Positions 32,712 to 56,020 of a DNA stretch of 58,446 nucleotides are shown here, piece after piece. The notes below the pieces were generated by a model, which was not told the origin of the DNA, did no database searches, and saw only the letters and a program-made list of their open reading frames with translations. Within the stretch, counting starts at the first letter, position 1. The number at the start of each line of letters is the position of its first letter. This DNA is from Kineosporia babensis. Lineage in GTDB: Bacteria > Actinomycetota > Actinomycetes > Actinomycetales > Kineosporiaceae. Location of the stretch: NCBI RefSeq assembly GCF_021129305.1, contig NZ_JAJOMB010000036.1:1-58446 (forward strand), read 5' to 3'. The position numbers were made by a program, and so were the translations under genes.

Positions 32712-32883
32712 GGCTCGCCATATTTGGCGTAGCTGACCTGCATCTTTACAGCAACTTGCGAGCGCTCACAATCCGTGACTGGGTTTCTGCAGTGAGCTCC
32801 GCAGGCTTCCTTGATCATCATGCCTCTGACCTGCATGCGAGCGCTCAAGCGTGCGCGGGCGGTCATTGGACCGCTCGCAGGCT
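32712..32883 (-). promoter_or_regulatory. Leader of CRISPR array 1
   Basis: The stretch between cas2 and the first repeat is less GC-rich and homologous to the leader of array 2. AGCGCT cores at 32761-32766 and 32840-32845 lie 49 and 128 nt from the array. GCTGTAAAGAT just inside the proximal box could be a -10 region for array transcription. A small palindrome GCCATATTTGGC is present at about 32717-32728 in this leader only. Confidence 0.8.
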
Positions 32884-33168
32884 TCACAGGATCCGTACCC
32901 CGTTGCTCGGTAGCTTCAGGGGTTGTCCTACGAAGGTGAATTGCTGGCCGTTCAGGCTGCCGATGTCGACGATGATTACAGAGTCTTCGGTGAGGTGCAT
33001 CTGTTCTTCGACCGCGGCTCTGCAGTGGATGAGTTCGGTTCGGCTGAGGTCGCAGACGAAGACCGAGTACTGGAGTCGCTCGCCATACTCCTCCATTGTC
33101 TTGGCCACTCGCCTGAGGCGGGTGGGGTCGCGGATGTCGTAGGCGATCAGGTGGCGGCGGCGGGCCAT
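32884..33168 (-). CDS. cas2: Cas2
   Basis: 94 residues, the normal length. It has the Cas2 start RRHLIAYDIRDPTRLRRVAK with the conserved first-strand Asp, and YSVFVCDLSRTEL in the second strand. Cas2 pairs with Cas1 to integrate new spacers. The ATG at 33168 has GGAGG 6 nt upstream. It is the last gene of the leftward operon, 21 nt after cas4-cas1, and its stop lies just before the array 1 leader. It is the only cas2 in the window, so it presumably serves both arrays. Confidence 0.96.
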   Translation of the reverse strand: MARRRHLIAYDIRDPTRLRRVAKTMEEYGERLQYSVFVCDLSRTELIHCRAAVEEQMHLTEDSVIIVDIGSLNGQQFTFVGQPLKLPSNGVRIL

Positions 33169-33189
33169 GTTTCCTCCCGGCGTTGGGGG

Positions 33190-34926
33190 TCAGCGGGTGG
33201 TGAGTGGTGTGTATTCGGGAAGTTCGCCGACAAGGTGTGCCGCGAGGAGCCGGCACTGGACTTCGATGGCCCGCCGGTAGCTGACTCGGTATCCGAAGAC
33301 GGGGTGGCGGATCTCGTGGTTGAGGCGGCGTTCGTAGGCGCCGATGACGGCTGTTCTGCCCTCGCGTTCGAGTTGGCATCCGCCGCCGCGTTGGGTGAAG
33401 TGGTGCTGGCGGATCTCGCCGTTGTTGATCAGTTGGATGACGGTGCTATCGGCGATGATGGGACGGAACTCTTCAGCGACGTCGAGGGCCAGGGCAGGGC
33501 GTCCGAATCGGGGACGGTGGTAGACGCCCAGGTACGGGTCGAGTCCGACGAGGTGGATGGCTGCGGTGATGTCTTTGACCAGGAGCGCGTAGGTGAAGGA
33601 GAGAAGAGCGTTGACGGGGTCCGGGGGCGGGCGTCGGGCTCGGCCGTTGCTGTCGAAGCTGGTGATGTCGACATCGGTGGAAGGCTTCAGCATGCCGGTG
33701 AAGGCTGCGAAGTAAAGCCGGGCTGCGGTTCCTTCCACACCGAGGAGCGAGGGAAACCCTTCTACCTGCATGGTTCTCTCGGCCAGGTGCCCCAGTTGTT
33801 CAATGATCCGCTGGGTGTCTGGGCGACTGTTTCTTCGGGTGAGCGTCCTGCAGTTTCGGATCTTTCCGTTGATCATGCGGCTCGCGATGGCCAGGGTGAC
33901 CTCGGTACTTGCCGTGTATTGGGCGCGGCGCATGTCGACATGCTTGCTGGGCAAGCCAGCGGCCATGCCGGTGAGCCAGCCTCCGTAGGAGAACCAGGCC
34001 ACGGGGATTTCCCGGTCGAAGAGCTCGCGCATGGCCTGGGACGAGATGGTGATGTTGCCGTACACGTTGACCTGGTTGACGTCGATGAGCCGGTAGCTTC
34101 CGAGTTTCTCTTTCTCTCGGTAAATTTCGAGCCTTCCACGGCGGACCGCAACGAGAGCACCCTGTTCACTGACGTAGACGGGGCGGCTGTCGGGATCGGC
34201 CACCATGACGCGACGAGGCGCTGGGGACGTGCGTGTTCGGAGGGTGTTGATCTCGTCCGGCATGCAGATCGACACCAGTGAGCATGCAGGGCATTTGGGG
34301 CTGTCTTTCAAGGGTGGGGGCGGCTTGTCGGACGCGGCGACTTCCTTGAGGTCGGCCAGAACCGCCCTGACACGCTCGCGGTGCTTCTCAGTGATTTCGA
34401 TGGTCACCCGTCGGCGCGTTTCGGCGTACCAGATTTCAGCGTGGCGAACCGTGTGGCCGGCGTCGCTGAGCAGGAGCGCCTGAATGATGGACTGGATCTC
34501 GTCGCTCGGCCACGGACGGCCTCGCGGGTCGGGGGATCCTTTCTTGTAGTCGATCGGGGTCACGGTGCCATCGTTTGCGATAGTGATGACGTCCGTCTTG
34601 GCTGTGACGCCCAGGTCCGGGGATGAGAGCCAGTAGGAACGCACCGTACGTCCGGCGGCGTGCTCCGGGTCGTGCTGGCCAGGTTCGGGAAGGTCGCCTC
34701 CCGGTTGATCGACAACCCTGTGGACGTAGAGCCCTTCTTCGACATCGTCGCTGGTGACGAAGCGCTGTTGGACCCATTCAAGATGGAACAGTCGTGGGCA
34801 GTAGACGAATTCGTTGACCATCCGAGCCGGGACCAGATCTGGCAGCGACTCCAAGTTGGACGTCATGTTCTGGTCCGGGTCACCTTCTTGTGGCTCAGTC
34901 GGCTTGTCCTGGAATTCGTGGTTCAT
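33190..34926 (-). CDS. cas4-cas1: Cas4-Cas1 fusion, type I-G
   Basis: 578 residues. Residues 1 to about 228 are Cas4: C43 (VYCPRLF) and the C-terminal Cys set C212, C215, C221 should hold an iron-sulfur cluster, and TD112 and PID126YKKG belong to the nuclease site. Residues from about 238 are Cas1, with the metal ligands E398 (GVEGTAARLYF), H470 (GVYHRPRFG) and the DVAEEFRP block (about 482-489). Cas4-Cas1 fusions are a hallmark of type I-G, where Cas4 trims prespacers and checks the PAM. The start codon overlaps the csb3-like stop by 4 nt (ATGA). It is the only integrase in the island. Confidence 0.96.
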   Translation of the reverse strand: MNHEFQDKPTEPQEGDPDQNMTSNLESLPDLVPARMVNEFVYCPRLFHLEWVQQRFVTSDDVEEGLYVHRVVDQPGGDLPEPGQHDPEHAAGRTVRSYWLSSPDLGVTAKTDVITIANDGTVTPIDYKKGSPDPRGRPWPSDEIQSIIQALLLSDAGHTVRHAEIWYAETRRRVTIEITEKHRERVRAVLADLKEVAASDKPPPPLKDSPKCPACSLVSICMPDEINTLRTRTSPAPRRVMVADPDSRPVYVSEQGALVAVRRGRLEIYREKEKLGSYRLIDVNQVNVYGNITISSQAMRELFDREIPVAWFSYGGWLTGMAAGLPSKHVDMRRAQYTASTEVTLAIASRMINGKIRNCRTLTRRNSRPDTQRIIEQLGHLAERTMQVEGFPSLLGVEGTAARLYFAAFTGMLKPSTDVDITSFDSNGRARRPPPDPVNALLSFTYALLVKDITAAIHLVGLDPYLGVYHRPRFGRPALALDVAEEFRPIIADSTVIQLINNGEIRQHHFTQRGGGCQLEREGRTAVIGAYERRLNHEIRHPVFGYRVSYRRAIEVQCRLLAAHLVGELPEYTPLTTR

Positions 34927-35981
34927 CGGGGTCCGCGCCGATGAACGCGCCGCGACGGCCTGGATGTGGGCATCTGTGTGGTCGGGGCAAGCACACCCGC
35001 GAACTGCCGGTCGGGGACAAGTCGCCGTTCGGCGTGGTTGATCCAGAAGATGGAGAGTTTCTCCAGAGCTGCGGCGCGGGGTTCTTCAGGGCGGCCCGGG
35101 GCAACCCCCTCCAGGAGTGGGTGTTCCAGCAGCGTCACAGCAGCGCTGTTGTCCAAGGGACGGCTCCAGAGCGGCCAGACAAGTCGATGGTCGGCCTGCG
35201 TCGGGCCCAGTGGCTGCCATCCGCTGCTGGTGGGGTGTTGTCGCGTCACGGTGGTGCGCAGGAGGGGATAGGACATCAGGGCGAGCCAGGTCGCGCCGGG
35301 AACACCTCGCTCGGCGGATGTGCCATCAGGGGCGTCTGCAGCATCGAACAGCACTCGGTGATCGAGGTATTCACCGCTGACGCCTGGTACCCGGCGCCAG
35401 GATGTGAACGCCTCGAACAGGAATTGCGGGTTCTCCCGCACCAGCGCCAACGGCTTCTCGAGCATCGTGCGGGATGACTGTTTTCCCGAGGTGGCGGTGA
35501 AGACACCGAACTGAACAAGGTTATCGCGGTCAGTGCTCAGGTCCGTGATCAGGCAGGAGAGCCACCGTTCACCAGCATCACCGGTTGCCTCAAAAACGCT
35601 TTCGGCATAGAACCGCCAGTCCGCTCGAGGTAAGCGCAACCGGTCGGGTGCTTCACCGCGGGGTGGAAGGTCCGCTGGGAGCCCTGGCAGGACACCGCCC
35701 TCAGGAATGCTCAGGACGATTCCGTACAGCATGTCCACGACGGCGTCCAGGTCGGGCAGCGGCGAGTGCAGCAGCGCGCTGGCATTCTCCCTGGACCAGG
35801 AGAGACGGATTCGACTGGTGGGCAGAACGGTCCGAAGGAGCCGGGATGTTCCCAGAGCTGCCAGGAAACCGAGAACGGTGCGCCCGTCGAGAGCAGGGAG
35901 GGAGAGAACGCTTTCGCCGGTGGTAGTGGTGTCTGGGTGCTCGATCGGCAGTTCGGATGGTGGTGTGGCTTTCCTGGTCAT
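34923..35981 (-). CDS. Csb3-like type I-G effector subunit
   Basis: 352 residues in the slot of the type I-G Csb3/Cas8-like subunit, between cas3 and cas4-cas1. The N terminus (LPALDGRTVLGFLAALGTSRLL) has the GFLAALG segment typical of this group, followed by RIRLSW and acidic helices. Such proteins are thought to be the large or accessory subunit that helps the complex recognise DNA and recruit Cas3. ATGA overlaps at both ends show tight coupling. A Csx17-type large subunit is not present. The family name is from memory of the N-terminal motif and gene order, so moderately sure. Confidence 0.65.
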   Translation of the reverse strand: MTRKATPPSELPIEHPDTTTTGESVLSLPALDGRTVLGFLAALGTSRLLRTVLPTSRIRLSWSRENASALLHSPLPDLDAVVDMLYGIVLSIPEGGVLPGLPADLPPRGEAPDRLRLPRADWRFYAESVFEATGDAGERWLSCLITDLSTDRDNLVQFGVFTATSGKQSSRTMLEKPLALVRENPQFLFEAFTSWRRVPGVSGEYLDHRVLFDAADAPDGTSAERGVPGATWLALMSYPLLRTTVTRQHPTSSGWQPLGPTQADHRLVWPLWSRPLDNSAAVTLLEHPLLEGVAPGRPEEPRAAALEKLSIFWINHAERRLVPDRQFAGVLAPTTQMPTSRPSRRVHRRGPR

Positions 35982-38900
35982 GATCCCTCCGCCGAGACAG
36001 TCATGTCAGCGCACCGGACGATCGTCTCCAGCAGGGCCAAGCCCCATCGTCCGTACCTGTGGTTGAGGTCGTCGAATCGGCCGGGATGTGTGAGATCGAC
36101 GGTGTCCTCGGAGGAGACGGAGACCGTCGAGCCGGCGATGTCGGCCTTGATGAGCCGGGGTCTGGGGTCGACGACGGCGGGCAGCAGAGGGCGGGCATGG
36201 CCGTGATGGCTGGCGACGAGGTGGATGAGGAGGTCAGTGTCACCCGGGTAGGCTGCTTCGCGGGTCGCGAGATGGGCTTGGACCAAGGCTGATGACCATG
36301 CCTCGTGGCGGGCACCGGCCGGCAGTCCGGACTGTGCTCGTGATCGCCGCCAGATCAGGGGGTCGGCAGGGTCCATCCCGGACTTGGCCAGTGGTTCGTC
36401 GGCAAGAAGCGCCTGAGTCTCGTCACCTGCGTGAAGCATGACCTGGAATCGGTGCTCCGTCTTGCCCAGGTCGTGCCAGCCGGCAGCATCCTCGACGACG
36501 GTCCTGAGTTCGTCCGGCAGGCCCAGCGCTGAGGCGATCTGACCAGCCCGGGCCCGGACGGCCTGATGGTGATCCTGAAGAGTGACTTGTCGAGCAGCGC
36601 CAGTAAGGTTCCTTCTCGGTCTGGCCACCGACGTTGCGACTTCGTCGTTCTCGTCCCAGTCGGGCATGTCGGTGCCGCTGAGTATCGGTTCGCTCGGGAT
36701 GCGCCCGCTGAGCAGAATCCCGAGCCGGTGGTAGCCCATTCCGTGAACGTCGCTGCGAGCCAGTACCTCCACGGCATGGGGAGGTGAGTCCAACCAGCGA
36801 CGCAGTCGTCGCCAGCTGTCTCTTGTCCAACCACGCCCAGGAGGAGGCATCGCCGGTAGTACCTCCGCGAGTTCGGACGTCAGGGCAGTGACATCGGCGA
36901 AGTCGTCGTAGGCGGCCAGGAAATCCGAGATGGTCTCATGGATCCTGCCGGGTGCGTCATGCTCTGGTCCGTCAGTCTGCGCACCGGACAGTTCTTGCCC
37001 CTGGCCAGGGTTCGATGATGCCGGGGCGATTCCCAGGCGTTCAATCAGGGTAGTGTCCAAGCTCAGGCTTCCTCGGGCATGCGCCGAGCGAGTTGGGGCG
37101 AACGTGGTTGCCTCGCTGACGTCCTGGACCGGCTGGGTGCTGCTGGGGTGCCAGCCGTACGGGTCAAGGCCACCGAACTCGACAGGGACCACGATCTCGT
37201 CGGCGGGGCGCAGTTGGTCGGCGCCGATCCATTGCCAGCCGACTTCGCCGTCCTCTTGACCGGCATCGTCACGTACTCGTCTTGCCAGAACATTGAAGGC
37301 GGGACGTTCAGTTTTGAAACGCTTTTCGGTTTCACCGCCGATGTCCACGTCCCCGATCGGGACAGAGACGAGCCCTGCGATCCAGTTGCGGGCAGCAATG
37401 AACGGGACTTCGACCTGTTCGGAGGATCGGATCGGAACTTCGGTCAGCCAGGCCGCCGCGAGACGAGCGTTCTGGCCGACCGGCCCGAAGTCGTCATCAA
37501 ACGGATCCGTGTCCCTGTACTCCTGTTTCGCCGGGGCGCCCTCGTCGAGCAGGCGGCTCCTCCAGGCGATCAGAACCGGTGGGGTGCCTCCGTCCATCCC
37601 GTGCAGGAAGGGGTGAACCGGCGGGTCGTTGAGTGGAACGGGGGCGGTGCGGGCCCAGGCATCGAGGGTCGGGCTCTGCAGAACAGGAATCTCCGGCAGC
37701 GCTACCTTGCAGGTTCCGTCGGCGAAATGCGTGTTCAGTTCCCGGCATTGCAAGGGTGAGACCGGCAGCCCTTCCGGATGTTCGCGCCTGAGGTCGAGCA
37801 GACGTTGCCAGGTAGCCACGGCGGAGCCCCCGTAGACCGGGACTCGCTCGCTGCCATCGTGTATCACGACAGCTCGGGCCGTGCCGCCGGGGAAACGCTC
37901 GTTCATGGTTCCCATGCGGTTGAGGCGTCCCAGCCGTTGCACGAGGGCGTCCCAGGGCGCGGTCTGGGTGACGAGAAGATCTGTGTCCAGATTTACTCCG
38001 ACCTCCACGGTCTGGGTAGCCACCAGAACTGCTGCCCGGGTGCGTGGTTTCCGCGTGGTCCCGAACAGCTGTAGAACCTGTTCCTGGATCCGAGCGCGGT
38101 CGGCCGGACGGGAGCGTCCGATGAGAAGGAGGACGTCAGCTGCGTTCGGTGCTGACTCTGGACGGTTGTGGGTCTCGATCTCGTGCAGGAGTTGGGTGTG
38201 GACCGCCCTGGCGTCGTCGACCGTGTTCATGACGACCAGGGCGACCGGCGCCCAGCCGTCCGGCGACGTTCCCTCCAGCATGCTCAGATGATCCGTGACC
38301 GCGGAGACAGCGGCTTTGACGACGCGGTTCTTGGCGGCCGGCAGCAGATCGAGCTTCTTGACGGCGGTCAGCCTCTTCCCAGCAACAGGGTGCTCCTGAT
38401 GGGTGAGAACGTCGAGGGTAAAGGTCGTCTCCCCCGCTTGCTCCGTCCAGGTCCGGTCGGTTGCGGACAGGCAGACTATCGACAGGCCGGGAAGAGGCAG
38501 GGTTGTCCGGTCCCGGCGGGCGGCAGCTCGTAGGCTCGTCGTCAGCGGCACCGCCAGATGGGCCTCATCGACCAGGAGCAGCGCGTCGGTCCCGACCAGG
38601 GCAGCGTCGATGGACCGACGACGGGGCGCAACACCGTAGCCGCGGAAGAAGTATCGGCTGCCGACCTGGTCCACGGTTGCCAGGACCACGGCGACCCGGT
38701 CAGGTCGGTCTGCCCACGACGCGTCCCAGGTCGTCCCTCCTCTCATCCGGGTAAGGGTGAACGGCATCGTCGTGATGTCCGGAGCATCTGGCGCGTAGCG
38801 GGCCAGGCCGGCGCGCACGCGATTCAGGACCGGCGAGGCGTTCCCTTGCTCAGGGTCGCTCAGGACCTTCAGGACTGAGCTGGCGTGCTCGAATGCCTCA

Positions 38901-39175
38901 TCGACGACGAGACGACGATCGACGACGAACAGGATCCGCCGTCGCCCTGCCCGGGCACGTGCTCCTGGGTCGGTTTCGGCCGCGGTGACGAACAGGACGA
39001 TGTCCAACAGCGAGGTCTTGCCCAGACCGGTGGGGACATCAACGAGCGCGGGCCAGGTCCCTTCGCGCAGGATCTGCGCTGTGAGTTCTTCTTGCCAGGG
39101 AAACGGGTCAACGGTGTGCACCGCCCGATAGAACGCACCGAAATCCTCAGCCCGCAGACGCCCAGCTCCGCTCAC
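35978..39175 (-). CDS. cas3: Cas3 helicase-nuclease, type I-G (C-terminal HD)
   Basis: 1065 residues. The helicase part carries Walker A VPTGLGKTS (about 47-55) and the DEAH box LVDEAHLAV (203-206), later helicase motifs such as VLVATQTVEVGVNLD and QRLGRLNRMG. The HD nuclease is at the C terminus (DHHQAV, then AGWHDLGKTEHRF near residue 900, and LVASHHGHARP), the domain order seen in type I-G Cas3. It would unwind and degrade DNA bound by the I-G complex. A GTG start overlaps the csb2 stop by 4 nt, and its own stop overlaps the csb3-like start. All key motifs look intact. Confidence 0.95.
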   Translation of the reverse strand: MSGAGRLRAEDFGAFYRAVHTVDPFPWQEELTAQILREGTWPALVDVPTGLGKTSLLDIVLFVTAAETDPGARARAGRRRILFVVDRRLVVDEAFEHASSVLKVLSDPEQGNASPVLNRVRAGLARYAPDAPDITTMPFTLTRMRGGTTWDASWADRPDRVAVVLATVDQVGSRYFFRGYGVAPRRRSIDAALVGTDALLLVDEAHLAVPLTTSLRAAARRDRTTLPLPGLSIVCLSATDRTWTEQAGETTFTLDVLTHQEHPVAGKRLTAVKKLDLLPAAKNRVVKAAVSAVTDHLSMLEGTSPDGWAPVALVVMNTVDDARAVHTQLLHEIETHNRPESAPNAADVLLLIGRSRPADRARIQEQVLQLFGTTRKPRTRAAVLVATQTVEVGVNLDTDLLVTQTAPWDALVQRLGRLNRMGTMNERFPGGTARAVVIHDGSERVPVYGGSAVATWQRLLDLRREHPEGLPVSPLQCRELNTHFADGTCKVALPEIPVLQSPTLDAWARTAPVPLNDPPVHPFLHGMDGGTPPVLIAWRSRLLDEGAPAKQEYRDTDPFDDDFGPVGQNARLAAAWLTEVPIRSSEQVEVPFIAARNWIAGLVSVPIGDVDIGGETEKRFKTERPAFNVLARRVRDDAGQEDGEVGWQWIGADQLRPADEIVVPVEFGGLDPYGWHPSSTQPVQDVSEATTFAPTRSAHARGSLSLDTTLIERLGIAPASSNPGQGQELSGAQTDGPEHDAPGRIHETISDFLAAYDDFADVTALTSELAEVLPAMPPPGRGWTRDSWRRLRRWLDSPPHAVEVLARSDVHGMGYHRLGILLSGRIPSEPILSGTDMPDWDENDEVATSVARPRRNLTGAARQVTLQDHHQAVRARAGQIASALGLPDELRTVVEDAAGWHDLGKTEHRFQVMLHAGDETQALLADEPLAKSGMDPADPLIWRRSRAQSGLPAGARHEAWSSALVQAHLATREAAYPGDTDLLIHLVASHHGHARPLLPAVVDPRPRLIKADIAGSTVSVSSEDTVDLTHPGRFDDLNHRYGRWGLALLETIVRCADMTVSAEGS

Positions 39176-40629
39176 GCCGACGTCACCATCGAGGGGGACA
39201 CACCGTGGCCAGCGTCCTTGTCCACGTTTTCGGGCGCCGGCGCGAAAAGGCCGACTCCCAGGTAGCGCCCTGCTCCCAGCAGCAGCGGTCCTGCCACGAC
39301 CTCCTCGAAGCGAAGCTCGACGTGACCGTAGGAACGCCCCAGAGACCGCCGAGGAAGATCCTGCGGGCGGAGCCGGACCGCGCCTCGCTGGAGCGGATCG
39401 CGGCTGAAGATCACCTCGGCCGGTTCCGGTAGGCCCATCATCCGCACCGAGCGGCGGATGCGGGCCAGGTCTCGAGGCCGTCTCGGCTCGTAGTCATACA
39501 CGAACGGTGTGGCGGTGATCCAGCGACGGCTGCCCTGACGCCATTTCTCGGGTGTTCCGCCCCAGGGATGCACAAGTCCGGGCTGGTGCAGCAGGTCGAC
39601 CGACCCCAGGTCACGCACCTTCAGCTGTATCAGCCCTCGGTCGTTCTGACGCAGCCCGAGAACCGCTGCCAGGATCTGGCGGCGTTCCGGCTCGGGCAGA
39701 TCAGGAACCGCAACCGCCAGGCCGAGCAGGTGGCCGTCAGCATACTGATGCCCGACATCCGGCAACGCCAGAAACGCCACGTGCGGGCGCCCGGAACGAC
39801 TATGGGTGCCGTCCGCCTCATGGCCGTGCAAAGCCTCGGGTGCCTCGCCACGGCAGTTGCGCAGGACGGCGCTGCGCAGCGCCTGGGTGTAACGCACAGC
39901 AAGGCGGCCGTCCGGGGCACTCCCCGAGAATCCTAGGATCACGATGTCGGAGTACACGGAAGGACGAACCGGATGACTGGTGGGCGGGACGACGGCTGGG
40001 CGGCGCCAGCGGTATCCGCTGTAGCGAGCAGTTTCCCAGGACGATCGGCCGAAGTCGTGGCTCTCACGCAACTCATCGAGGAACCCGGGGTACGGCACGC
40101 GCACCATCTGGTCGCAGTCGATCAGGTCGCAGCGGGAAAACACCGACTCCCCCGCGCTGACAAGGGGTTCCTTCGTTTCCGCCTGGGCACCCAGCAGGGC
40201 GATTCCGCTTGATCGACCCAGATACGGTACCCGTCGTGCCATGTCGTCGATGCTCTGCGCTACGTGCGGAGGGCAGTCGTTACCCCAGACCATCCGTACC
40301 CGCGGTGATTCCGGAACTGCGCCGGCCCGGGTCCTCAGGCCATTGGTCCGGCCCAGGTGCGTCTGGCTTCCGCCCTTGGTGACGACCTTGTTCGTGACCA
40401 CGTAACCGGTCCGGGAGAAGCCCTGTGCCCGCTCAGTCGCAATGATCAAGGGTTCGAGCTGCTGTTCCAGCCAGGTCAGGGCCTCGTCGTCAGCGCTGCT
40501 ACGGGCAGCGTCAACGAGTGCGCAGAACACGCGAGCCGGATGTGGCGGCCACTCCGGATGTGCGGGGTCCTCGACCTGGGCGGCCTCGTACGTCCCGGTG
40601 AGCAAGTCGATGGTCAGGGTCAGAGGCAT
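39172..40629 (-). CDS. csb2: Csb2 (Cas5-Cas6 fusion), type I-G
   Basis: 485 residues of the GSU0054/Csb2 family. The N terminus (LTIDLLTGTYEAAQ, then HPEWPPHPARVFCALVDAA) is the family signature. In type I-G, Csb2 combines the Cas5 role of capping the crRNA 5' handle with the Cas6 role of cutting the repeat hairpin. No stand-alone cas6 is visible anywhere in the island, so this is the best candidate to process both arrays, whose repeats share the same stem. It starts 4 nt after the csb1 stop. Confidence 0.9.
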   Translation of the reverse strand: MPLTLTIDLLTGTYEAAQVEDPAHPEWPPHPARVFCALVDAARSSADDEALTWLEQQLEPLIIATERAQGFSRTGYVVTNKVVTKGGSQTHLGRTNGLRTRAGAVPESPRVRMVWGNDCPPHVAQSIDDMARRVPYLGRSSGIALLGAQAETKEPLVSAGESVFSRCDLIDCDQMVRVPYPGFLDELRESHDFGRSSWETARYSGYRWRRPAVVPPTSHPVRPSVYSDIVILGFSGSAPDGRLAVRYTQALRSAVLRNCRGEAPEALHGHEADGTHSRSGRPHVAFLALPDVGHQYADGHLLGLAVAVPDLPEPERRQILAAVLGLRQNDRGLIQLKVRDLGSVDLLHQPGLVHPWGGTPEKWRQGSRRWITATPFVYDYEPRRPRDLARIRRSVRMMGLPEPAEVIFSRDPLQRGAVRLRPQDLPRRSLGRSYGHVELRFEEVVAGPLLLGAGRYLGVGLFAPAPENVDKDAGHGVSPSMVTSA

Positions 40630-40633
40630 GAGT

Positions 40634-44397: not shown

Positions 44398-44429
44398 GTG
44401 CGTCCTTGCCTCTCCAGGTAGGTATGGCT

Positions 44430-46490: not shown

Positions 46491-46718
46491 GATATGGAAG
46501 CTACCTCTTCAGACCGCCGTCGGCCATAAGAATCCACAACAGAATGTAGTTCGGAGAAAAAAGTATCTCTATTGCCGCCGCCTTCGATGTAGAGTCCCTG
46601 GCGAAAGGTCACTCAGAACAACACCTGTCAAGGACTGGGCGTGCAAGGCCGTCGCAGCAGCCTGCCCAGCCGTCATGAGGTGCAGTCTTCAGCGCCACTT
46701 CGGACCGGGAAGGCATCC
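46491..46718. promoter_or_regulatory. Divergent promoter region of the two cas operons
   Basis: 228 nt between the divergent starts, distinctly richer in A and T than its surroundings (for example GAGAAAAAAGTATCTCTATT near 46554). It must drive both the leftward CARF/I-G operon and the rightward III-D operon. I cannot assign -10 or -35 boxes with confidence. The ribosome binding site GGGAAGG at 46707-46713 belongs to cas10. Confidence 0.6.
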
Positions 46719-48422: not shown

Positions 48423-51001
48423 CTGCATCGTCATCCGCTGCCCCAGATCTCGCGAGGCCTCTAACTCTGCCGTTCCGGGTGAATATCCGCTTCGTCAGTG
48501 ACTGGCATGTGGGCACGGGCGACGGCCGCGCCGGCGTCGTGGACGCGGCCGTGCATCGCGATCCGGCAGGCCTTCCCTACGTGCCCGGCAAGAGCCTGAC
48601 CGGGCACTGGCGTGATGCCTGCGCGACTGTCGCAGATGCCCTTGACACCACCAGCGCCACCACCACGAACACACGATCGTGGGCGCAGTGGGCCGAATGG
48701 CTTTTCGGCACCGACAACCAGGGCGGTCCCGAAGGCACCGGAAGTCGGTTGCCGGGGGAAACACCTGATGCCAGCACCGCTCTGGACAGCTGGGTGCCCC
48801 TGCCTGCATCGGTAGGGATCGGCCCAGGCGTACTCCCTGATCGCTGGCGCGAAACTCTCAGTGGCAAGCCTGCCCTGATCGAAGGGCTCTTCTGTCTACG
48901 CCCGGGCGTGGCCCTTGACCCGGTCAGCGGCACTGCACGCGAGGAACACCTCCGCCTGGAGGAACGTGTCATGGCTGGGCTCCCCTTGAGCGCAGAGGTC
49001 CGCGCCACAGTCTCCGGCGGCGAAACGCAACTGCCCGAGCCGGCCGAGCTGCTGCTGCGGGCAGGTGCCCGTCTGGTCGATGGGCTGGGCGGCAAACGCA
49101 ACCGCGGGGCCGGGCGCGTCCATCTGATCCTGCCTGGGGTCGAGATGGCTGACGACCTCGCCGCCACCCTGACCGAGGCCACGGCCGACGGCAGCATCAC
49201 CGGCTGGGACCCGGCTGAACCACAGGACCTACGCCTGCAGGAGCTCCTGGCTGACACGGACCTGCTCGATGCGCCTGGACCGACACCCCCACCACCGCAA
49301 CGGCCACCCGCGCTGCCTCTGGGCAGCGGATCCGCTGCCTCACCCGTCCCCGGGAACGTCCAGGACGCCTGGACCTACCGAGTCGTGTTTCGGGTTCAGA
49401 CTCCTGTGCTGGCGGCAGTCCGCCGGCAGGGCAACGTGCAAGAAAGTTCCACCGAGATCCCGGGCACCACGTTGTTTCCTGCTGTCCTGGAACGCCTGAC
49501 CTCGAATGATCAAGTGGGCCTGTCCGAGATCAGCGTGGGCAACGCCGTACCAGCGGTCCAGGTCCCGGACGGCACTGTCGCTGCGGCACACCTGGCTCCC
49601 TTGACCTGGTTCAACCCGGACAAGGGTCGCAGCCCGCTGATCATCAACCGTTCCTGCACGGGTGAGGACCGATCCCGCCGGGCGAAGCCGGCACGTGGTC
49701 GATACGCCCGCTCGCAGGATGTCTCGTGGCAGGCTGTTGCTGTTGAGTTCACCGACAGCACCCATCCGGTGATCGACGACCGGCTGCGACGACCGGTCGA
49801 GTCGGCCGGAGGAGGACTGTTCACCTACCTCGGTATCGCCGCGGGAACGCTCCTGGTGAGCGAAATCCGTCTGCCTCAGCGAGCCGGTCTGCGCCTGAAG
49901 TCTGGAGACGTCCTACGGATAGGCCGCTCTCGCAAGGACGACTTCGGTCAGCTCCGTGTGGAATCGGTGACCGGCTCACCGGACTCCGTGCACCCGTCGT
50001 CCCAGGCCCTGGACCGCTCCCGCCTCCAGGTGTGGTGCATCAGTGACGTCCTGTTGCGCGGTGAACGGCTCCAGCCGGACCCGACGCCACGTGGGCTGGC
50101 TCGCGAGGTCGGTCGCCGACTCAACAAGAACCTGCAGGTGCTCATGGATGAGACCTTCTCGGACGGTTCGGGGTCGCGCCTGCTGACAGCCACAGCGGTG
50201 AGGAGAACGGAGGGTTTCCGGCCCCGCTGGCATCGCCCTCGGCCTGCCTACACTGCCCTCAGCGCCGGATCTGTGGTGACGCTCGCGACCATCGACGGCA
50301 GCATGATCGATGGTGATCTGATCGCCGAACTCGAACGGACAGGCGTCGGGGAACGGGTCGCCGAGGGCTACGGTCAGGTCCGCATCGATCCGCTGGAGCT
50401 CACCACTGAGTCACCCGCGATCGTCGAGCCGATCAGCTCCGCCCCCGGTCCGTCCCTTCACACGCCCCTGGATGATCTCCCCATCAGCAGACCGACCCCC
50501 GTCGAACAGGCCTGCTGGCTAGAGATCGTACGGCGCCGTACAGCCCAACTGGTTCTTTCGCCGCCGTCATCGCTACTGCCTCTGGAGTTTTCCCCTGGAC
50601 GTTCGCAGTTAGGTGCGCTGCGCACCCAACTGTCTCGCCTGCCGCTGGACGCCACCATGCCGCAGACCGAGGTCCATGAGTGGTTCCGAGGGCTGCAAGC
50701 GTCTCTGGCCCGGTTGTCCTGGTCCCCACAGACCTACGAGGCAGCCCGAGCCCTGCTGCTGGGTGTCTCGCCCCACCACGGTCGCCTCGGCGGTGACGAG
50801 CCGCTGCACGACCGCTGGGAACGGCACCCGGTTTGGGACTATCTCGGTCTGAGCGGCGCTCAGCCGGACCTCGTCCTGGCTGCTGGCCGGGAACCTCTTC
50901 TGCGTCGCGCACTCTTGCGTGACGCCCAGTCGACCGTCCTGCTCGGTCTGCTGCGTCACCACCAGGCCCAGACTTCAGCTGCCGGGGAGGCACCATCGTG
51001 A
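48419..51001 (+). CDS. Fused Cas7-Cas5-Cas11-like RAMP protein (Csx10-like)
   Basis: 860 residues. The first RAMP unit starts FVSDWHVGTGDGRAG, has Asp 42 at the position of the Csm3 cleavage residue, then GLPYVPGKSLTGHWRDA and a Gly-rich loop GLGGKRNRGAGRV. A second RAMP unit begins near residue 315 (TYRVVFRVQTPVLAA) and ends with GERVAEGYGQVRI. The last 170 residues are helical and could be a small-subunit (Cas11-like) domain. This order, Cas7 then Cas5 then Cas11, matches the fusion protein of type III-Dv complexes. It would bind the crRNA 5' region and, through Asp 42, cut target RNA. ATGA overlap with cas10; GTGA overlap with the next gene. Confidence 0.75.
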   Translation: MTASSSAAPDLARPLTLPFRVNIRFVSDWHVGTGDGRAGVVDAAVHRDPAGLPYVPGKSLTGHWRDACATVADALDTTSATTTNTRSWAQWAEWLFGTDNQGGPEGTGSRLPGETPDASTALDSWVPLPASVGIGPGVLPDRWRETLSGKPALIEGLFCLRPGVALDPVSGTAREEHLRLEERVMAGLPLSAEVRATVSGGETQLPEPAELLLRAGARLVDGLGGKRNRGAGRVHLILPGVEMADDLAATLTEATADGSITGWDPAEPQDLRLQELLADTDLLDAPGPTPPPPQRPPALPLGSGSAASPVPGNVQDAWTYRVVFRVQTPVLAAVRRQGNVQESSTEIPGTTLFPAVLERLTSNDQVGLSEISVGNAVPAVQVPDGTVAAAHLAPLTWFNPDKGRSPLIINRSCTGEDRSRRAKPARGRYARSQDVSWQAVAVEFTDSTHPVIDDRLRRPVESAGGGLFTYLGIAAGTLLVSEIRLPQRAGLRLKSGDVLRIGRSRKDDFGQLRVESVTGSPDSVHPSSQALDRSRLQVWCISDVLLRGERLQPDPTPRGLAREVGRRLNKNLQVLMDETFSDGSGSRLLTATAVRRTEGFRPRWHRPRPAYTALSAGSVVTLATIDGSMIDGDLIAELERTGVGERVAEGYGQVRIDPLELTTESPAIVEPISSAPGPSLHTPLDDLPISRPTPVEQACWLEIVRRRTAQLVLSPPSSLLPLEFSPGRSQLGALRTQLSRLPLDATMPQTEVHEWFRGLQASLARLSWSPQTYEAARALLLGVSPHHGRLGGDEPLHDRWERHPVWDYLGLSGAQPDLVLAAGREPLLRRALLRDAQSTVLLGLLRHHQAQTSAAGEAPS

Positions 51002-52836
51002 GCGTGGGCGTCCATCATCGCTACGAGGTCAGCGGCATTCTGGTGTGCGAATCGCCGTTGAGCGTCGGTGGGTGGGGTGAGAGTCCTACCGCTGATCTTC
51101 CTCTGGCCCGAAACGCCACCGGTCAACTTCTCATCCCGGGAACTGCCCTGGCGGGCGTCCTGCGCCACGCGCTGCAACGCTGGTACACCGTTCTCGGGCA
51201 CGACTCCCAGCCCATCGATGATCTGTTCGGCTTCGTGGAACCACGCACCCAGCACGGAACAGCCTCACGCATCCGTTTCGACGACGCGGTGTTCCTCGGC
51301 CCGGGCGCAGCCGTACCCACGATTCGCACCGGAGTGGGGATCGACCGTGTCACCGGATCGGCTGCCTCCGGATACCTCTACACCCAGGAAATGGTGCCGT
51401 CTGGAGGCTGTTTCCGGTTCCGGATGATTGGTGAAGAACCCCTTTCCCGGGCTCGATTGGATACGCCAGACCAGCAGGCCCTCCGACCGGCACAGGACAC
51501 GGCCGAGGCCATCGAAGCGATACTGCACATGCTCTCGCGCGCAGAGCTGTCCATCGGCGCCGGTCAGAGCAAGGGGCTGGGACGAATCCGTCTGACGGGA
51601 GTAAGGACTCGGCAGATCGACCTGTCCTCCCGCAAGGAACTGCTGTCCTGGCTCAGCGGGACCCGCCCCTGGCAGCCCTACCAGGCTCCGGCCGCCGGCG
51701 GTGGCGCGAGCGGAGCGACCTCAGAAACCGGATCCCGACCAGGATGGTTGACCGTGAGCATCAACTGGAAACCCCTGTCTCCGGTCATGGTTCGCGAGTC
51801 CTATCCCGGACTGGTGGTGAAGACTCTCCCGCTGACCAGGCACGAGTACGCGCCCAACGGATACGGCCGGGTCCGGCTAGTGCTGCCGGGTAGCTCCCTG
51901 AAAGGATCCCTTCGAACGACCGCGGAGAAGATCGTCCGAACCCTTCTCGAGCGCGACGTCCCGGCTGACGCCGCCGGATCATCGGCAGGCCTGGGAGCTG
52001 CCTTGGAAGAGGATCTTCCAGGAATTGGACCGCTCTTCGGCCGCCCACCGGCCCGCAACCCAGGCGACAAGACCAACGAATCAGGCTGGCGGGGCGTCCT
52101 ACAGATCGAGGACTGCCTCAGCCATGGCCATGTCGGCCTCCTGGACTGGCAGCGACTCACCGAGGCTCTGACCAAGGCGCCGATCTCGGAGTCGCAACCA
52201 TCGCCCCGCGCACCGGTCAGTTCACCGGCGTCCGGCGGGCGTTCCCCACGGCCCGGCCCGCGTCCTGGACCGCGCCCTCGAGGTAAGGAGCCACGCTCCA
52301 GCGCAGCGGCGGCCAGAGACCAGCGCAGCATCGAACGACTTGACGACCGTTATGTCCTCAACAGCGTTCTCAACGGTCTTGGAGGTAAGGACGGTCTGCA
52401 GCTTCGGGTCAGCGACCACAACTCCATCGACCGATGGACGGGTGGCGCGGCCGACGCGCGACTGTTCTCCGTCCTCGAACCGGTGGCCACCCGATGGTCG
52501 CCCTTGATCTTGGCCCTGGACACCTACCGTCTGTCGCTGGCGCCAGGTGAGCACCAAGCCGACATCTGTCTGATTCTTCTGATCAACGTCCTACGTGAAA
52601 TCGTCGAGGGACGAGTGGACATCGGCACGAACACCACTCGCGGCTTCGGCCAGATCACAGCCGCAGCCAAGGACATCCATTTCACTGGAAGCGACCTGCC
52701 TGCACCCTGGTCCGCGCTGACCGGTCTGACCCTCGAAGACATCCTCGGCGAACTGCCCAAGCCGGTCGTGACTGCTCTCGAGCACTGGAGCGATCTCCTC
52801 ACCACCGAATCCTCACTCTCAGGAGAGACCCCGTGA
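50998..52836 (+). CDS. Double Cas7 RAMP protein (Cas7-2x-like)
   Basis: 612 residues with two Cas7 units. Unit 1: PLSVGGWGESPTAD33LPLAR, LIPGTALAGVLRHAL, a finger with RTGVGIDRVTG and the Gly-rich loop GAGQSKGLGRI. Unit 2: SPVMVRESYPGLVVK275TLPL, LVLPGSSLKGSLR, and NTTRGFGQI. The presumed RNA-cleaving Asp is present in unit 1 (D33) and replaced by Lys in unit 2 (K275). A basic Pro/Arg/Gly-rich insert lies in unit 2 (about 405-440). The arrangement equals the Cas7-2x subunit of type III-Dv. GTG start in a GTGA overlap; GTGA overlap with the next gene as well. Confidence 0.8.
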   Translation: MSVGVHHRYEVSGILVCESPLSVGGWGESPTADLPLARNATGQLLIPGTALAGVLRHALQRWYTVLGHDSQPIDDLFGFVEPRTQHGTASRIRFDDAVFLGPGAAVPTIRTGVGIDRVTGSAASGYLYTQEMVPSGGCFRFRMIGEEPLSRARLDTPDQQALRPAQDTAEAIEAILHMLSRAELSIGAGQSKGLGRIRLTGVRTRQIDLSSRKELLSWLSGTRPWQPYQAPAAGGGASGATSETGSRPGWLTVSINWKPLSPVMVRESYPGLVVKTLPLTRHEYAPNGYGRVRLVLPGSSLKGSLRTTAEKIVRTLLERDVPADAAGSSAGLGAALEEDLPGIGPLFGRPPARNPGDKTNESGWRGVLQIEDCLSHGHVGLLDWQRLTEALTKAPISESQPSPRAPVSSPASGGRSPRPGPRPGPRPRGKEPRSSAAAARDQRSIERLDDRYVLNSVLNGLGGKDGLQLRVSDHNSIDRWTGGAADARLFSVLEPVATRWSPLILALDTYRLSLAPGEHQADICLILLINVLREIVEGRVDIGTNTTRGFGQITAAAKDIHFTGSDLPAPWSALTGLTLEDILGELPKPVVTALEHWSDLLTTESSLSGETP

Positions 52837-53549
52837 GCTACGCACCAGTCGCCTCTGCGGTTACTGATAAGCCCATGGCACGCCCGGCCGGGCAGAACCT
52901 CACGAGCCACCTGTTACGGGCCGTCGAGAGCCAGGAATTGTGCACTGTTGCCGAGGCACTCGCCTGGTGCTGGCCCGACCCGGTCACATCCGATGCTGTC
53001 GTGGGGTTCAGTTACGCCACCGATCAGGCCCTCTGGTGGCGATACACAACCGATGGCCCACACACTGCCCAGGGACTTCTTTCGCTCGACGATGCCTATG
53101 AAGTGGTCGCCTTCGACGGCGTCTGTGAACTTCGGTGGCTCCAGGAGCATCATGGGCGAGGGCGTGCTGTCGTACTCGGCGAAGAACCAGACCATCTGCC
53201 CAGAGGGCCTCAACTGACGGGCTGTGAAAGGTCTCGTGAGTACGAACCCCTCGGAGATCGTCACCATCTGCTCGCGGGCCTTCCCGTCCCGACGGCACCT
53301 GGATGGACTCGACTGCAGGCTCGCCGCCAGCGGTACCGATCGGCAGACATCCCGATCGACTGGAGCAGTGCATCGGCACCACCGGCAGGTATCGCCCTTC
53401 GAAGCCGTGAGTACATCAGCGAGGATGAATATGGCAACGTCTCAGTCACCGAAACACGACTGATCTCATTACTTTTCCTCTCCGAGGAGGCAATGCTCCT
53501 TGGCGATCCGCCCTGGGACCCGACGAATCACGCGGAAGGCGAGCGATGA
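52833..53549 (+). CDS. csx19: Csx19-like type III-D protein
   Basis: 238 residues. ALWWRYTTDG, then LRWLQEHHGRGRAVVLGEE, corresponds to the pattern of Csx19 (TIGR03984) proteins found next to Cas7-type genes in type III-D loci. The position, fourth after cas10, is where Csx19 stands in III-Dv systems; there it sits on the effector complex. The GTG start overlaps the previous stop by 4 nt, and its own stop overlaps the next ATG. The assignment rests on a weak motif plus gene order. Confidence 0.6.
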   Translation: MSYAPVASAVTDKPMARPAGQNLTSHLLRAVESQELCTVAEALAWCWPDPVTSDAVVGFSYATDQALWWRYTTDGPHTAQGLLSLDDAYEVVAFDGVCELRWLQEHHGRGRAVVLGEEPDHLPRGPQLTGCERSREYEPLGDRHHLLAGLPVPTAPGWTRLQARRQRYRSADIPIDWSSASAPPAGIALRSREYISEDEYGNVSVTETRLISLLFLSEEAMLLGDPPWDPTNHAEGER

Positions 53550-56020
53550 TCGACAAGAACATGCCACCACGGGTCGCAACAGCCGTCCACCAGGGACACC
53601 ATCTAACAGCCGCATTCTCGGTCTCGCCCGACCCAGCAACCAACATCAAAGAACGCAAGCTGCCTCAGCCGAAGTTCAGCCGCCCCCTGGCAGAATGGTT
53701 CGCCAACGCCGAACCCGGCGCGCAGGTTCAGATCAGCGTGAAGCTGCAGATCAGCGGGAACATCGAGCAGGTCCGACTCCTGGCCGAAACCATCCTTCCC
53801 GAGATCCCGAACGACCCACAGCGCATGAAGGCTCTTGATGCACCGGGGCCTGACGGAACCCGGGAAGGTTTCGTCAACCCTTACACCTTCGTCCCCACGC
53901 CCGAACGAACCTCGCTGCAGGACTCGCCTGCCACGGCAGCGTTCGCCGATCGAGCGCCCAACAGCCACGCCCGAATCACCTCCGGGCAGTGGAATGGCAC
54001 CATCACGGTGACCTTCACCTGTCGAACCCCGCTCCTCCTGCCTGATACCGCCAATTCTCTGCAGGATTCTTGCAAGCGCACCACCTACCGGACCTTGACC
54101 GACCATCAGGGCCGCCCTCTGCTGGCTCCGACTTCGGTCAAGGGCGCAATACGGTCCGCTTACGAAACCATCACCGCCAGCCGCTACGGCGTGTTCACCG
54201 AGCCGGCCCTGCCCTATGCCTACCGGATGCCCCCGGGAGCCGCTCTTGATCTCGTCCCCGCCGTTGTCCAGGGCGAGGGAGACCAGCGCTACTTTCACCT
54301 CTGCCCGTGGCCGGACCGGAAGCCGAGAACCGCAAGCATCACAGGCAGCGTTCTGAACGCCGTCTGGGTTCCGGCCTACAGGGACCGCAAGCAACAGCTT
54401 CGACTGCTGAACGGCCTTTCCGGCCAGGTGCTCTCAGACTTGCACGGGCGAAAGGTCACCGCACGAATCCGTCTCATGTCGCGCGGAAAAGGATCCCATT
54501 TTCTCCTCTGGCAGGCAACACACCTGTCCGACAGTTCACCGCAGGCCCTTCAACGGATCCTCTCCCAGGAGAGCGACGACCATCTCTCCAAAGGCAAGTA
54601 CCAACTGGAGAACACCGAACCGCCACGCTTCGTCGAAGGGATCCTGTCTGTCACCGGCGCTTCCATCAGGACCAAGCACGACGAACGCCTGTTCGTCCTC
54701 CCCTCCGAAGGCCCCCCCGAGATCCCCCTTCAGCCGGTGACCTCCGAGCACCAAGACTTCTGGAACGCCATTCTTCACGCCTACCGCCAAGCGGCCACCT
54801 ATAACACGGTCCCACAAGGGCTCGCCCGCTCCCGGCACATTGACCAGGCCGAGCAACTCATGAACCTGCCATCAGGAACGCCGCTCTACGTCACCATGAA
54901 CAGCAACAAAATCACCGGTGTTTACCCCGTCATGATCGGAAGGATCCCTTACGACAACACACCCGCCGACATCCTCCATCCCTCGCTACGCCCCGCCCGA
55001 CTTCTCAGCGAACTGTCCGCCGCCGACCGCGTCTTCGGCTGGGTTCCCACCAAAGGTCCCGACCGAAGCAGCAAATCCTCCGGATATCGTGGCCGCCTGA
55101 TCGTGCGCAGCATCGTGCCCAACACCGACTGCACGATCACCGAACTCAACCACTCCACCAGCAAGAGCGATCAGGTAACCGCAGAGCCCAACGAACCTGG
55201 AATCGTCCTCAGCCCTCTCAGCTCGCCCAAGCCAACCCAGTTCCGCTTCTACACCGGCGCCACGAGCGGCCGGCCGACGGCCAAGGCAGCCCCCAAGGCG
55301 ACCGGCTACCAGAACGACAGCTCGCTGCGCGGACGCAAGCACTACCGCTGGTCCAGCAATCTCCCCGACAACCACTGGGACCCGACGACCGAAACCACCG
55401 AAACACGCGAGTACCTCGACCGGACCAGCACCGACGACGAAACCTCCAGCACGCAGACGACGAGATACCTTTCCTGGGTTGCACCGCAAAGCAGCTTTAC
55501 CGTGCAGTTGCGGGTAGACGGCATCGGCACCGACGAACTCGGTGCTCTCATATGGCTCCTCAATCAAGGCTCGAACGCCCCGTTACGCCTCGGGCCAGGC
55601 AAACCTCTCGGCTTCGGCGTCGTCGAAACCCAGATCGACTGGAGCACCGACCAGACACAACTCTGGGAGGTGAACGCCATCAAGGAGAGCTGGCGCACCC
55701 TCGGCCGACCCCAACCCGCTCTCCCCGAGAAACTCAAGATCCTCGCCAACCGGTTCGAAACTCAAGCCCGCAGCCACCCGGTCCTCGCCGAAGCCGTCGA
55801 ATCCTACTGCCGTGCAGTCGCACCCACCGACGCAGCCATCCACTACCCACGCCCCAGCCCAGACCGTACCAACAAGATCTACGAATGGTTTGCCACCAAC
55901 GAAAAGACCACGGGCGGCTCGAAGAACAACCCCATCAAAGTCGTTCACGGATGGCCACTCCCCCACGTCAGGGAACCAGACCAACGGCTCCCTTACCACC
56001 CATTCCAAGACCGGAAGTGA
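53546..56020 (+). CDS. TIGR03986-type RAMP protein (Cas7-insertion-like)
   Basis: 824 residues. FVNPYTFVPTPER (about 109-121), the strand TITVTFTCRTPLLLPDT, then LLAPTSVKGAIRSAYETITASRYGVF and YAYRMPP are the hallmarks of the TIGR03986 family of type III-D RAMP proteins. The long middle and a second RAMP-like part with the Gly-rich turn RLGPGKPLGFGVVE near residue 690 fit the Cas7 subunit with a large insertion seen in type III-Dv. It would form the part of the complex at the crRNA 3' side. Last gene of the rightward operon, overlapping csx19 by 4 nt. Its codon choice is a little less extreme in G/C than its neighbours. Confidence 0.8.
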   Translation: MIDKNMPPRVATAVHQGHHLTAAFSVSPDPATNIKERKLPQPKFSRPLAEWFANAEPGAQVQISVKLQISGNIEQVRLLAETILPEIPNDPQRMKALDAPGPDGTREGFVNPYTFVPTPERTSLQDSPATAAFADRAPNSHARITSGQWNGTITVTFTCRTPLLLPDTANSLQDSCKRTTYRTLTDHQGRPLLAPTSVKGAIRSAYETITASRYGVFTEPALPYAYRMPPGAALDLVPAVVQGEGDQRYFHLCPWPDRKPRTASITGSVLNAVWVPAYRDRKQQLRLLNGLSGQVLSDLHGRKVTARIRLMSRGKGSHFLLWQATHLSDSSPQALQRILSQESDDHLSKGKYQLENTEPPRFVEGILSVTGASIRTKHDERLFVLPSEGPPEIPLQPVTSEHQDFWNAILHAYRQAATYNTVPQGLARSRHIDQAEQLMNLPSGTPLYVTMNSNKITGVYPVMIGRIPYDNTPADILHPSLRPARLLSELSAADRVFGWVPTKGPDRSSKSSGYRGRLIVRSIVPNTDCTITELNHSTSKSDQVTAEPNEPGIVLSPLSSPKPTQFRFYTGATSGRPTAKAAPKATGYQNDSSLRGRKHYRWSSNLPDNHWDPTTETTETREYLDRTSTDDETSSTQTTRYLSWVAPQSSFTVQLRVDGIGTDELGALIWLLNQGSNAPLRLGPGKPLGFGVVETQIDWSTDQTQLWEVNAIKESWRTLGRPQPALPEKLKILANRFETQARSHPVLAEAVESYCRAVAPTDAAIHYPRPSPDRTNKIYEWFATNEKTTGGSKNNPIKVVHGWPLPHVREPDQRLPYHPFQDRK

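Follow-up and report, generated by a model that had tools for sequence, protein, structure and literature searches.

The window analysed here is an entire contig of Kineosporia babensis (NZ_JAJOMB010000036.1; 58,446 bases), belonging to a draft genome of 9.4 Mb (megabases) in 89 contigs that we refer to as G000. From position 29963 to the end of the contig at 58446, it carries an unbroken CRISPR-Cas island. The locus comprises 13 genes, namely a complete type I-G set, a complete type III-Dv operon and two accessory genes, and a CRISPR array flanks it on each side. The features are listed below in their order along the contig, with the profile or structure match that identifies each; lengths are in nucleotides (nt) or amino acids, and 8s9t is a PDB entry.

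29963-29999 (approximate): degenerate extra repeat of array 1, at its outer (left) end
30037-32711, minus strand: CRISPR array 1, 37 repeats CCGTTCCCGGCCACCCGGCCGGGCCTCCATAGCGAC, 36 spacers, 35 of them distinct
32712-32883, minus strand: leader of array 1, identified by likeness to the array 2 leader and by blocks common with I-G relatives
32884-33168, minus strand: cas2 (TIGR01573, 43.8 bits)
33190-34926, minus strand: cas4/cas1 fusion of type I-G (NF049935, 764 bits)
34923-35981, minus strand: short cas8g, csb3-like, beside cas3 (NF049934, 288 bits; PADLOC Cas8g, 71 bits)
35978-39175, minus strand: cas3g helicase-nuclease (TIGR02621, 709 bits, cut-off 400)
39172-40629, minus strand: csb2, a Cas5-Cas6 fusion (TIGR02165, 259 bits)
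40634-41803, minus strand: csb1, or cas7g (TIGR02570, 65 bits, cut-off 38)
41800-44397, minus strand: Csm6-2-like CARF-HEPN ribonuclease, 865 amino acids (PADLOC PDLC01161, 148.6 bits)
44430-46490, minus strand: L8, uncharacterised, 686 amino acids, with relatives in genomes G008 and G009
46491-46718, no strand: divergent intergenic region of 228 nt, from the gene boundaries, with ATG 46719 taken as the cas10 start
46719-48422, plus strand: cas10 (PADLOC Cas10, 293 bits; 8s9t, E 2.5e-31)
48419-51001, plus strand: cas7-cas5-cas11 fusion, or cas7-5-11 (8s9t_A, E 1.4e-65)
50998-52836, plus strand: cas7-2x (8s9t_D, E 7.3e-57)
52833-53549, plus strand: csx19 (TIGR03984, 68.6 bits)
53546-56020, plus strand: cas7-insertion (TIGR03986, 210 bits; 8s9t_E, E 1.3e-66)
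56384-56555 (start approximate), plus strand: leader of array 2, by homology to the array 1 leader
56556-58446, plus strand: CRISPR array 2, 26 repeats CTGTTCCCGGCCTACCGGCCGGGCCTCCATAGCGAC (56556-58420), 25 complete distinct spacers, running to the contig end

All six left-hand cas genes reach the cut-offs of their NCBIfam families, and the components by which type I-G is recognised are present by profile: cas3g, csb1 with csb2, the cas4/1 fusion with cas2, and Cas8g in its short form. The operon has no gene for the long, Csx17-type form of the large subunit. In G001, a relative of the same genus, a second locus (L089 6027-8528) holds a weaker cas3g match and a neighbouring open reading frame of 833 amino acids, in addition to that genome's short-Cas8g I-G locus. 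Judged by position alone, this frame might encode the long Cas8g/Csx17 form.

For the rightward genes, the PDB sequence search covered the products of cas10, cas7-5-11, cas7-2x and cas7-insertion, csx19 being left out, and for all four the best match was 8s9t, the III-Dv complex of Synechocystis. The csx19 and TIGR03986 genes score above their NCBIfam cut-offs; Cas10 and the two RAMP fusions score below, yet they match PADLOC Cas10 and III-D models. The order cas7-2x, csx19, cas7-insertion is that expected of III-Dv, and all five genes are open across the full profile-matched length, with overlaps of 4 nt. Cas10 retains the GGDD cyclase motif (residues 328-331 in the numbering of a frame of 593 amino acids that starts at GTG 46641), and the profile search found no HD domain in it. 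Papers are cited here by their PMC identifiers. With the numbers of the RNA-cutting sites taken from PMC11026444, Asp42 of the cas7-5-11 product aligns to the catalytic Asp26 of Synechocystis. The aligned stretches of this product and 8s9t_A are query residues 20-240 and 320-741, with the Cas11 tail aligned in part. The cas7-2x product retains its first catalytic Asp (Asp33), and its second site is occupied by Lys275.

An initial annotation of this DNA, based on its letters alone, had named the same leftward set (csb1, csb2, cas3, a csb3-like gene, cas4-cas1, cas2) and rightward set (cas10, a fused RAMP, a double Cas7, csx19-like and TIGR03986-type genes), and had called the first type I-G and the second a type III-D variant. 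Profiles and PADLOC models recover every one of these genes. The I-G assignment stands (cas3g alone scores 709 bits), and the rightward genes fall inside type III rather than outside it, with the four PDB matches placing them in the III-D variant. The annotated interval, 32884-56020, holds the cas genes but leaves out both flanking arrays. Similarly, the divergent region of 228 nt exists as described, but it does not separate csb1 from cas10, as the CARF-HEPN and L8 genes intervene. This region presumably contains the promoters of both operons. On either side of it, 8 of the 11 junctions between same-strand genes are overlaps of 4 nt.

The two arrays have closely related repeats of 36 nt that fold an identical stem of 7 base pairs. 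They differ at 3 of 36 positions (2, 13 and 14), none of which lies in the stem or in the 8-nt tag. Their leaders share 74% identity over 148 nt, with a local alignment score of 104 against a maximum of 28 in 500 dinucleotide shuffles, and blocks of the leader are common to the window, to the I-G relatives G001 and G009, and to G008, a genome of another genus. When the window's repeats were compared with those of G001, G009 and G008, the scores were 25-27 of 36, and in each comparison none of 300 shuffles did as well. Against nine consensuses from eight other III-D loci the scores were 9.5-17, which 10 to 237 of 300 shuffles equalled; these are the other actinobacterial loci where our script detected arrays, and the two consensuses from one of them (L054) are merely 20-21 nt long. 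A smaller, earlier comparison with four III-D-adjacent arrays, including two partial repeats, had the same outcome. Because of this likeness of repeat and leader to those of I-G relatives, array 2 is an I-G-type array that lies beside the III-Dv operon. Since the degenerate repeats sit at the outer ends, both arrays are probably transcribed in the direction that leads away from the cas genes, array 1 leftward and array 2 rightward.

A search of the whole genome with PF01867 gave one Cas1 match, in the I-G cas4/1 fusion, and the repeat core, allowing up to 2 mismatches, occurs in 63 copies, all of them on the window's contig. Together with the homologous leaders, these two results support shared acquisition from a single adaptation module, as the initial annotation had supposed. 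Shared processing is supported as well, because Csb2 is the sole Cas6-type enzyme that this locus encodes. In an alignment of the Csb2 proteins of the window, G001 and G008 (two from the latter), four His are invariant and only His436 lies in the C-terminal domain, which makes it the probable catalytic residue. The Csb2 of Thioalkalivibrio yields a handle of 8 nt by means of a C-terminal histidine (PMC9638904). The proteins of the two csb2 genes of G008 (L007 3069-4847 and L085 2-1036) are 81% identical over 282 amino acids. The island thus has two marks of a type I/III system with shared arrays: a type III half that lacks acquisition genes, and arrays of the repeat and leader class of its type I half.

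We therefore propose, with a probability of roughly 0.7, that this is a composite island, where a single I-G acquisition module, two sister arrays and processing by Csb2 provide CRISPR RNAs (crRNAs) that arm both an I-G and a III-Dv effector. Gene content, the single Cas1, the class of repeat and leader, the coupling within operons and a partial recurrence in a second genus, described below, are computed directly. The steps of the mechanism are modelled on characterised systems. Cas4/1-Cas2 of type I-G would fill both arrays, and the Cas6-type domain of Csb2 would cut both precursor crRNAs at the same hairpin, leaving the 8-nt tag AUAGCGAC. The crRNAs would then arm two effectors, which supposes that III-Dv can load crRNAs of I-G origin. 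The I-G Cascade and Cas3 would destroy DNA, presumably with use of a protospacer-adjacent motif (PAM), and the III-Dv complex would bind and cut phage mRNA while its Cas10 makes cyclic oligoadenylate (cOA). The effector activated by cOA would be the Csm6-2-like CARF-HEPN nuclease, whose gene lies close to the start of the I-G operon. By analogy, then, we infer processing by Csb2, PAM use, RNA cleavage, cOA synthesis, activation of the nuclease and acquisition into both arrays. If the crRNA pool is common, a phage that escapes DNA targeting by a mutation in the PAM or seed would still meet RNA sensing and cOA signalling. Moreover, with the Cas6-type enzyme of type I-G fused to Cas5, the island offers a test of whether a Cas5-Cas6 fusion can hand crRNAs to a foreign effector.

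One spacer bears on the use of both effectors. Of 60 distinct spacers it is the only one with a clear phage match, to actinophage DUF4326 genes. Array 1 matched 62 phage records, and this spacer accounts for 38 of 40 among the matches listed. In the 4 phage records examined, 33-35 of its 38 nt are identical, and the 5' flank of the protospacer is TTG in three and TTC in one. These flanks would agree with the TTN PAM of type I-G, but the count comes from a single spacer and carries no statistic. The crRNA would be complementary to the mRNA, and its tag pairs at 0 of 8 positions in the two flanks compared. With a TTN-type flank, complementarity to the mRNA and an unpaired tag, the spacer is, on sequence, suited to both effectors. 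A plasmid record of Streptomyces anulatus likewise holds a DUF4326 gene that this spacer matches at 86%. For another spacer (31171-31209) we did not count the weak matches, which are to phage SV1 (E 0.07, in part within the repeat) and to two Sinorhizobium plasmids that lack annotation (E 5e-3). The spacers of array 2 had no match among phage records at E 0.1 or among plasmid records at E 0.01. Array 1 also contains two adjacent identical spacers (31536-31647), a local duplication of a repeat and spacer.

The strongest competing explanation is that the two systems are neighbours only, with array 1 serving I-G and array 2 serving III-Dv, such that acquisition enzymes and processing are common but crRNAs are kept separate. 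Each array does lie at the 3' end of its own operon, and the two arrays differ in repeat variant and have no spacer in common. Distinct repeat variants beside different operons could mean separate use, and the array 2 variant could be reserved for one effector. However, the differences at positions 2, 13 and 14 leave the stem and the tag identical, and these are the parts read by Cas6-type domains and by effector 5' ends. The placement of the CARF effector gene in the I-G operon also speaks for joint use. Finally, among compatible arrays, pairs of type I and type III systems that share repeats and acquisition are the largest class (n=85; PMC8482600). We consider separate use unlikely, while regarding it as the alternative that fares best.

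The two accessory genes are those between csb1 and the divergent region. The PADLOC model that the protein of 865 amino acids matches describes a CARF domain fused to a diverged HEPN domain, and the motif RNTLPITH (R-X6-H) is found at residues 770-777. The form R-N-X5-H also occurs in the G008 relative and in two CARF proteins adjoining other III-Dv operons (L062, L102). We call the protein Csm6-2-like because its size, motif and context agree with what characterises Csm6-2, namely CARF and HEPN domains with R-X4-6-H, about 800 amino acids and a type III-D locus; the two were set side by side by description alone. Its gene, although of a III-Dv-type effector, is placed in the I-G operon and overlaps csb1 by 4 nt. 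In 7 of 19 other genomes, a relative was found beside the III-D operon (phmmer, E 1e-5), with the PADLOC profile agreeing for two of the seven. In four loci (L056, L058, L062 and L064) the relative is divergent from cas10, the matches of L056 being weak (25 and 45 bits). Among 376 relatives, the protein was found in 3: G000, G008 and G009.

L8 matches no Pfam, NCBIfam or PADLOC model. A relative of it adjoins cas10 in G008 and the CARF gene in G009, and relatives are present in 5 of 369 genomes of the class, including the window's own. It might conceivably be an accessory regulator or partner, although this is a weak guess. We had considered L8 as a general part of III-Dv and dropped the idea, as there is none in the stretches read around 19 other III-D Cas10 genes. 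Four other actinobacterial genomes that bear L8 (L079, L080, L081, L082) have no other homologue of a window protein in the stretch fetched; in one of them the L8 relative is near a CHAT-domain protein and in another near a kinase and, by eye, an Hsp70-like frame. Predicted structures are of low confidence for both accessory proteins: the mean predicted local distance difference test score is 40.6 for L8 (from a two-sequence alignment) and 37.4 for CARF-HEPN (from a single sequence). Neither protein has a match among plasmid records.

It is also conceivable that the III-Dv half is a passenger that is losing function and is kept by linkage to the I-G operon. The change of the second Cas7-2x Asp to Lys275, where 12 of 16 other sequences retain Asp, would fit such decay, as would the existence of I-G relatives that live without a detected Cas10. 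However, the five genes are open and overlapping as described above, Cas10 keeps GGDD, two of the three catalytic Asp are retained, the CARF-HEPN R-X6-H is retained in both G000 and G008, and Cas10 is 49% identical between these two genera with open frames. We regard decay as quite improbable. That the assembly fused two unrelated loci, for which one could cite the draft state of the genome, is more improbable still, given that genes overlap inside each operon, that either end has an array with a homologous leader, and that a G008 contig joins csb2/cas3g, two repeats and cas7-insertion.

In a sample of 13 Kineosporiaceae genomes, Cas10 is found in 2 (G000 and G008) and full-strength cas3g in 5 (G000, G001, G008, G009 and G010). 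The latter was counted at E < 1e-200, the default threshold of E 0.001 being unspecific (it gave positives in 13 of 14 controls and in 10 of 13 genomes of the family). Second, weaker cas3g matches occur in G001 (E about 1e-75) and G004 (E about 1e-80). The combination of both halves recurs in G008, where it is split over contigs: C154 carries cas3g-csb2, a two-repeat array and cas7-insertion; on C80 the L8 relative adjoins cas10; and on C403 a second csb2 is followed directly by the CARF-HEPN gene. The same arrangement, which the initial annotation had proposed to look for in other genomes, is thus found as a combination, though only in contig fragments and rearranged. Because of this recurrence, the association of the halves is not an accident of one assembly, even though genes have been rearranged. 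The recurrence likewise speaks against a gene arrangement due to chance. In G009, of a third genus, the L8-CARF pair is on one contig and I-G on another.

Beyond the family, a search with the Cas10 alignment detected III-D-type Cas10 at E 1e-15 in 7 of 396 genomes of the order, 12 of 394 of the class and 4 of 396 of the phylum, counts that each include the window's own genome and that comprise 21 distinct genomes; at most three candidates per genome were scored, so misses are possible. No convincing I-G gene was seen within about 10 kb of III-D-type Cas10 in 19 other actinobacterial genomes, where contig ends truncate several of the stretches, L052 is a Cas10 fragment that is too short to tell, and some, such as L049 and L066, are loosely III-Dv-like. 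A scan of a genome collection with the Cas10 alignment gave 14 loci, one of which we take to be G008; the other 13 had no I-G genes within 8-21 kb each (phmmer, E 1e-3). Cas10 had 10 distant matches among plasmid records, and 8 of these were cyanobacterial. In 3 of the 19 genomes (G545, G702 and G616; stretches L099, L094 and L095 among them) the III-Dv operon is beside I-B-type genes: G545 and G702 have Cas6 and Cst2 profile matches and G616 has a Cas1b match, with Cas6 and the G616 Cas1b just under the cut-off. Weak cas3g matches beside III-Dv (L095/L055, L099/L061, L094/L057) were rejected as I-G, as the profile matches of the neighbouring genes fit I-B better, some below cut-off. A Cas1-like gene of another kind is near the III-D operon in G267, G350 and G919. 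At E 1e-30, cas3g is present in 4 of 20 genomes (the 19 and G008), namely G008 and G873, and more weakly G826 and G668. In G873, matches to cas4/1, csb2 and cas3g are on a contig separate from its III-Dv contig. The sampled III-D operons thus adjoin I-B-type genes, other Cas1-like genes, I-G genes (in the window's family), or no type I or acquisition gene that we saw in the stretch covered. This variety of neighbours hints at III-Dv being a plug-in module.

Several of these results, like the distinct repeat variants, weigh against the composite reading. The halves are separable, since I-G occurs without a detected Cas10 in G001 and G010. Cas10 was not found in G009 despite its L8-CARF pair. 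The evidence from G008 is split over short contigs, and csb1 was not seen on those read. A CARF-HEPN relative was not seen in 12 of the 19 other III-D loci, within the stretches read. Likewise, the locus holds no Cas6-type enzyme besides Csb2, and no cas6 or adaptation genes belonging to the III-Dv half, but the rest of the genome was not searched for Cas6. Of three RNA-cutting Asp expected for III-Dv, two are present (Asp42 and Asp33) and the third is lost to Lys275. The second Cas7-2x site is, however, Gly, Lys, Asn and Gly in the 4 of 16 other loci compared that lack Asp there, and Lys275 therefore touches a mechanistic detail rather than membership in III-Dv, which is a matter of gene content. 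With respect to separability, the initial annotation had held that its proposal would be contradicted by halves that occur independently in close relatives with no shared arrays. The halves do occur apart (I-G in G001, III-D in the 19 genomes), but the arrays of the composite are both I-G-type.

A more far-reaching version of the composite reading is that III-Dv gave up its own Cas6, acquisition genes and repeats and now depends on I-G crRNAs made by Csb2, that the I-G operon became translationally coupled to the alarm nuclease of III-Dv, that L8 is a new accessory, and that the whole forms a heritable subtype with two effectors, confined to one family of actinobacteria. We offer this version tentatively, and the odds are somewhat against it. 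If it is true, a single promoter region would drive both DNA interference and cOA signalling, with one memory guiding the two.

To the left of the island, on the minus strand between 180 and 28431, profile matches among the 10 proteins scanned are to a Mutator transposase, NlpC/P60, Replic_Relax, a TrwB-like coupling protein and a TraG-like ATPase. This region is possibly a conjugative or integrative element adjoining the island, and as such a candidate vehicle.

The III-Dv half resembles that of Synechocystis PCC 6803 (8s9t; PMC11026444) in its five-gene order, fusions, GGDD motif and Csx19. The CARF-type accessory nucleases are a further likeness, as Synechocystis has Csm6 and Csx1 upstream. 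In Synechocystis, unlike in the island, the operon is followed by cas6-2a, adaptation genes and an array, although a cas6 and adaptation genes of its own are not universal for III-Dv; here acquisition comes from I-G, and processing probably does too. The loss of the second Cas7-2x active site is another difference. The I-G half is like that of Thioalkalivibrio (PMC9638904) with respect to cas3g, csb1, csb2, cas4/1, the 36-nt hairpin repeat and, for one protospacer, the TTN-type flank. It differs in that the short NF049934 protein replaces the long Csx17 type and in that CARF-HEPN and L8 precede in the operon. The CARF-HEPN protein is comparable to Csm6-2 of Actinomyces procaprae, an RNase that belongs to type III-D loci and is activated by cA6 (PMC11229360), in its CARF and HEPN domains, its length (about 795 amino acids there, 865 here) and its one R-X4-6-H in the C-terminal HEPN. 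In this comparison by description, the window's gene stands apart by its location in an I-G operon.

As to the combination, the initial annotation knew of no described hybrid of these two subtypes, and we too found none in the literature as far as it was available, with the possible exception of a table entry in the supplement of PMC11237760, a myxobacterial survey that reports seven hybrid systems. A survey of type III systems files hybrid loci under their type III subtype (PMC11229360), and the term I-G is absent from the main text of a 2025 classification, as far as that text was available (PMC12669027). Sharing between type I and type III is a known kind, and it is the pairing of I-G with III-Dv and its layout that seem to be undescribed. 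The name I-G has also been applied in Pyrococcus furiosus, presumably as an older name for the Cst type and not for the csb1/csb2 type considered here. In that organism, I-A, "I-G" and III-B complexes share the crRNAs of all seven arrays (Majumdar 2015, cited in PMC12814883), which counts against the novelty of our proposal. The likeness consists in type I and type III complexes, one of them named I-G, with a common crRNA pool; the type III partner there is III-B, and a single divergent locus goes unmentioned in the available part of PMC12814883. A bioinformatic study has described arrays usable by both type I and type III effectors, the type I partners being I-B, I-A, I-C and I-E (PMC8482600). 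The available sections of that study describe no I-G/III pair and no single divergent island flanked by arrays on both sides, and they mention I-G once, in a PAM table. Nevertheless, the island resembles its pairs in having a type III half without cas1 and cas2, arrays of the type I kind and a single acquisition module. For one type I/III combination, I-F with III-B in Marinomonas, a backup function against phage escape has been reported (PMC5576922).

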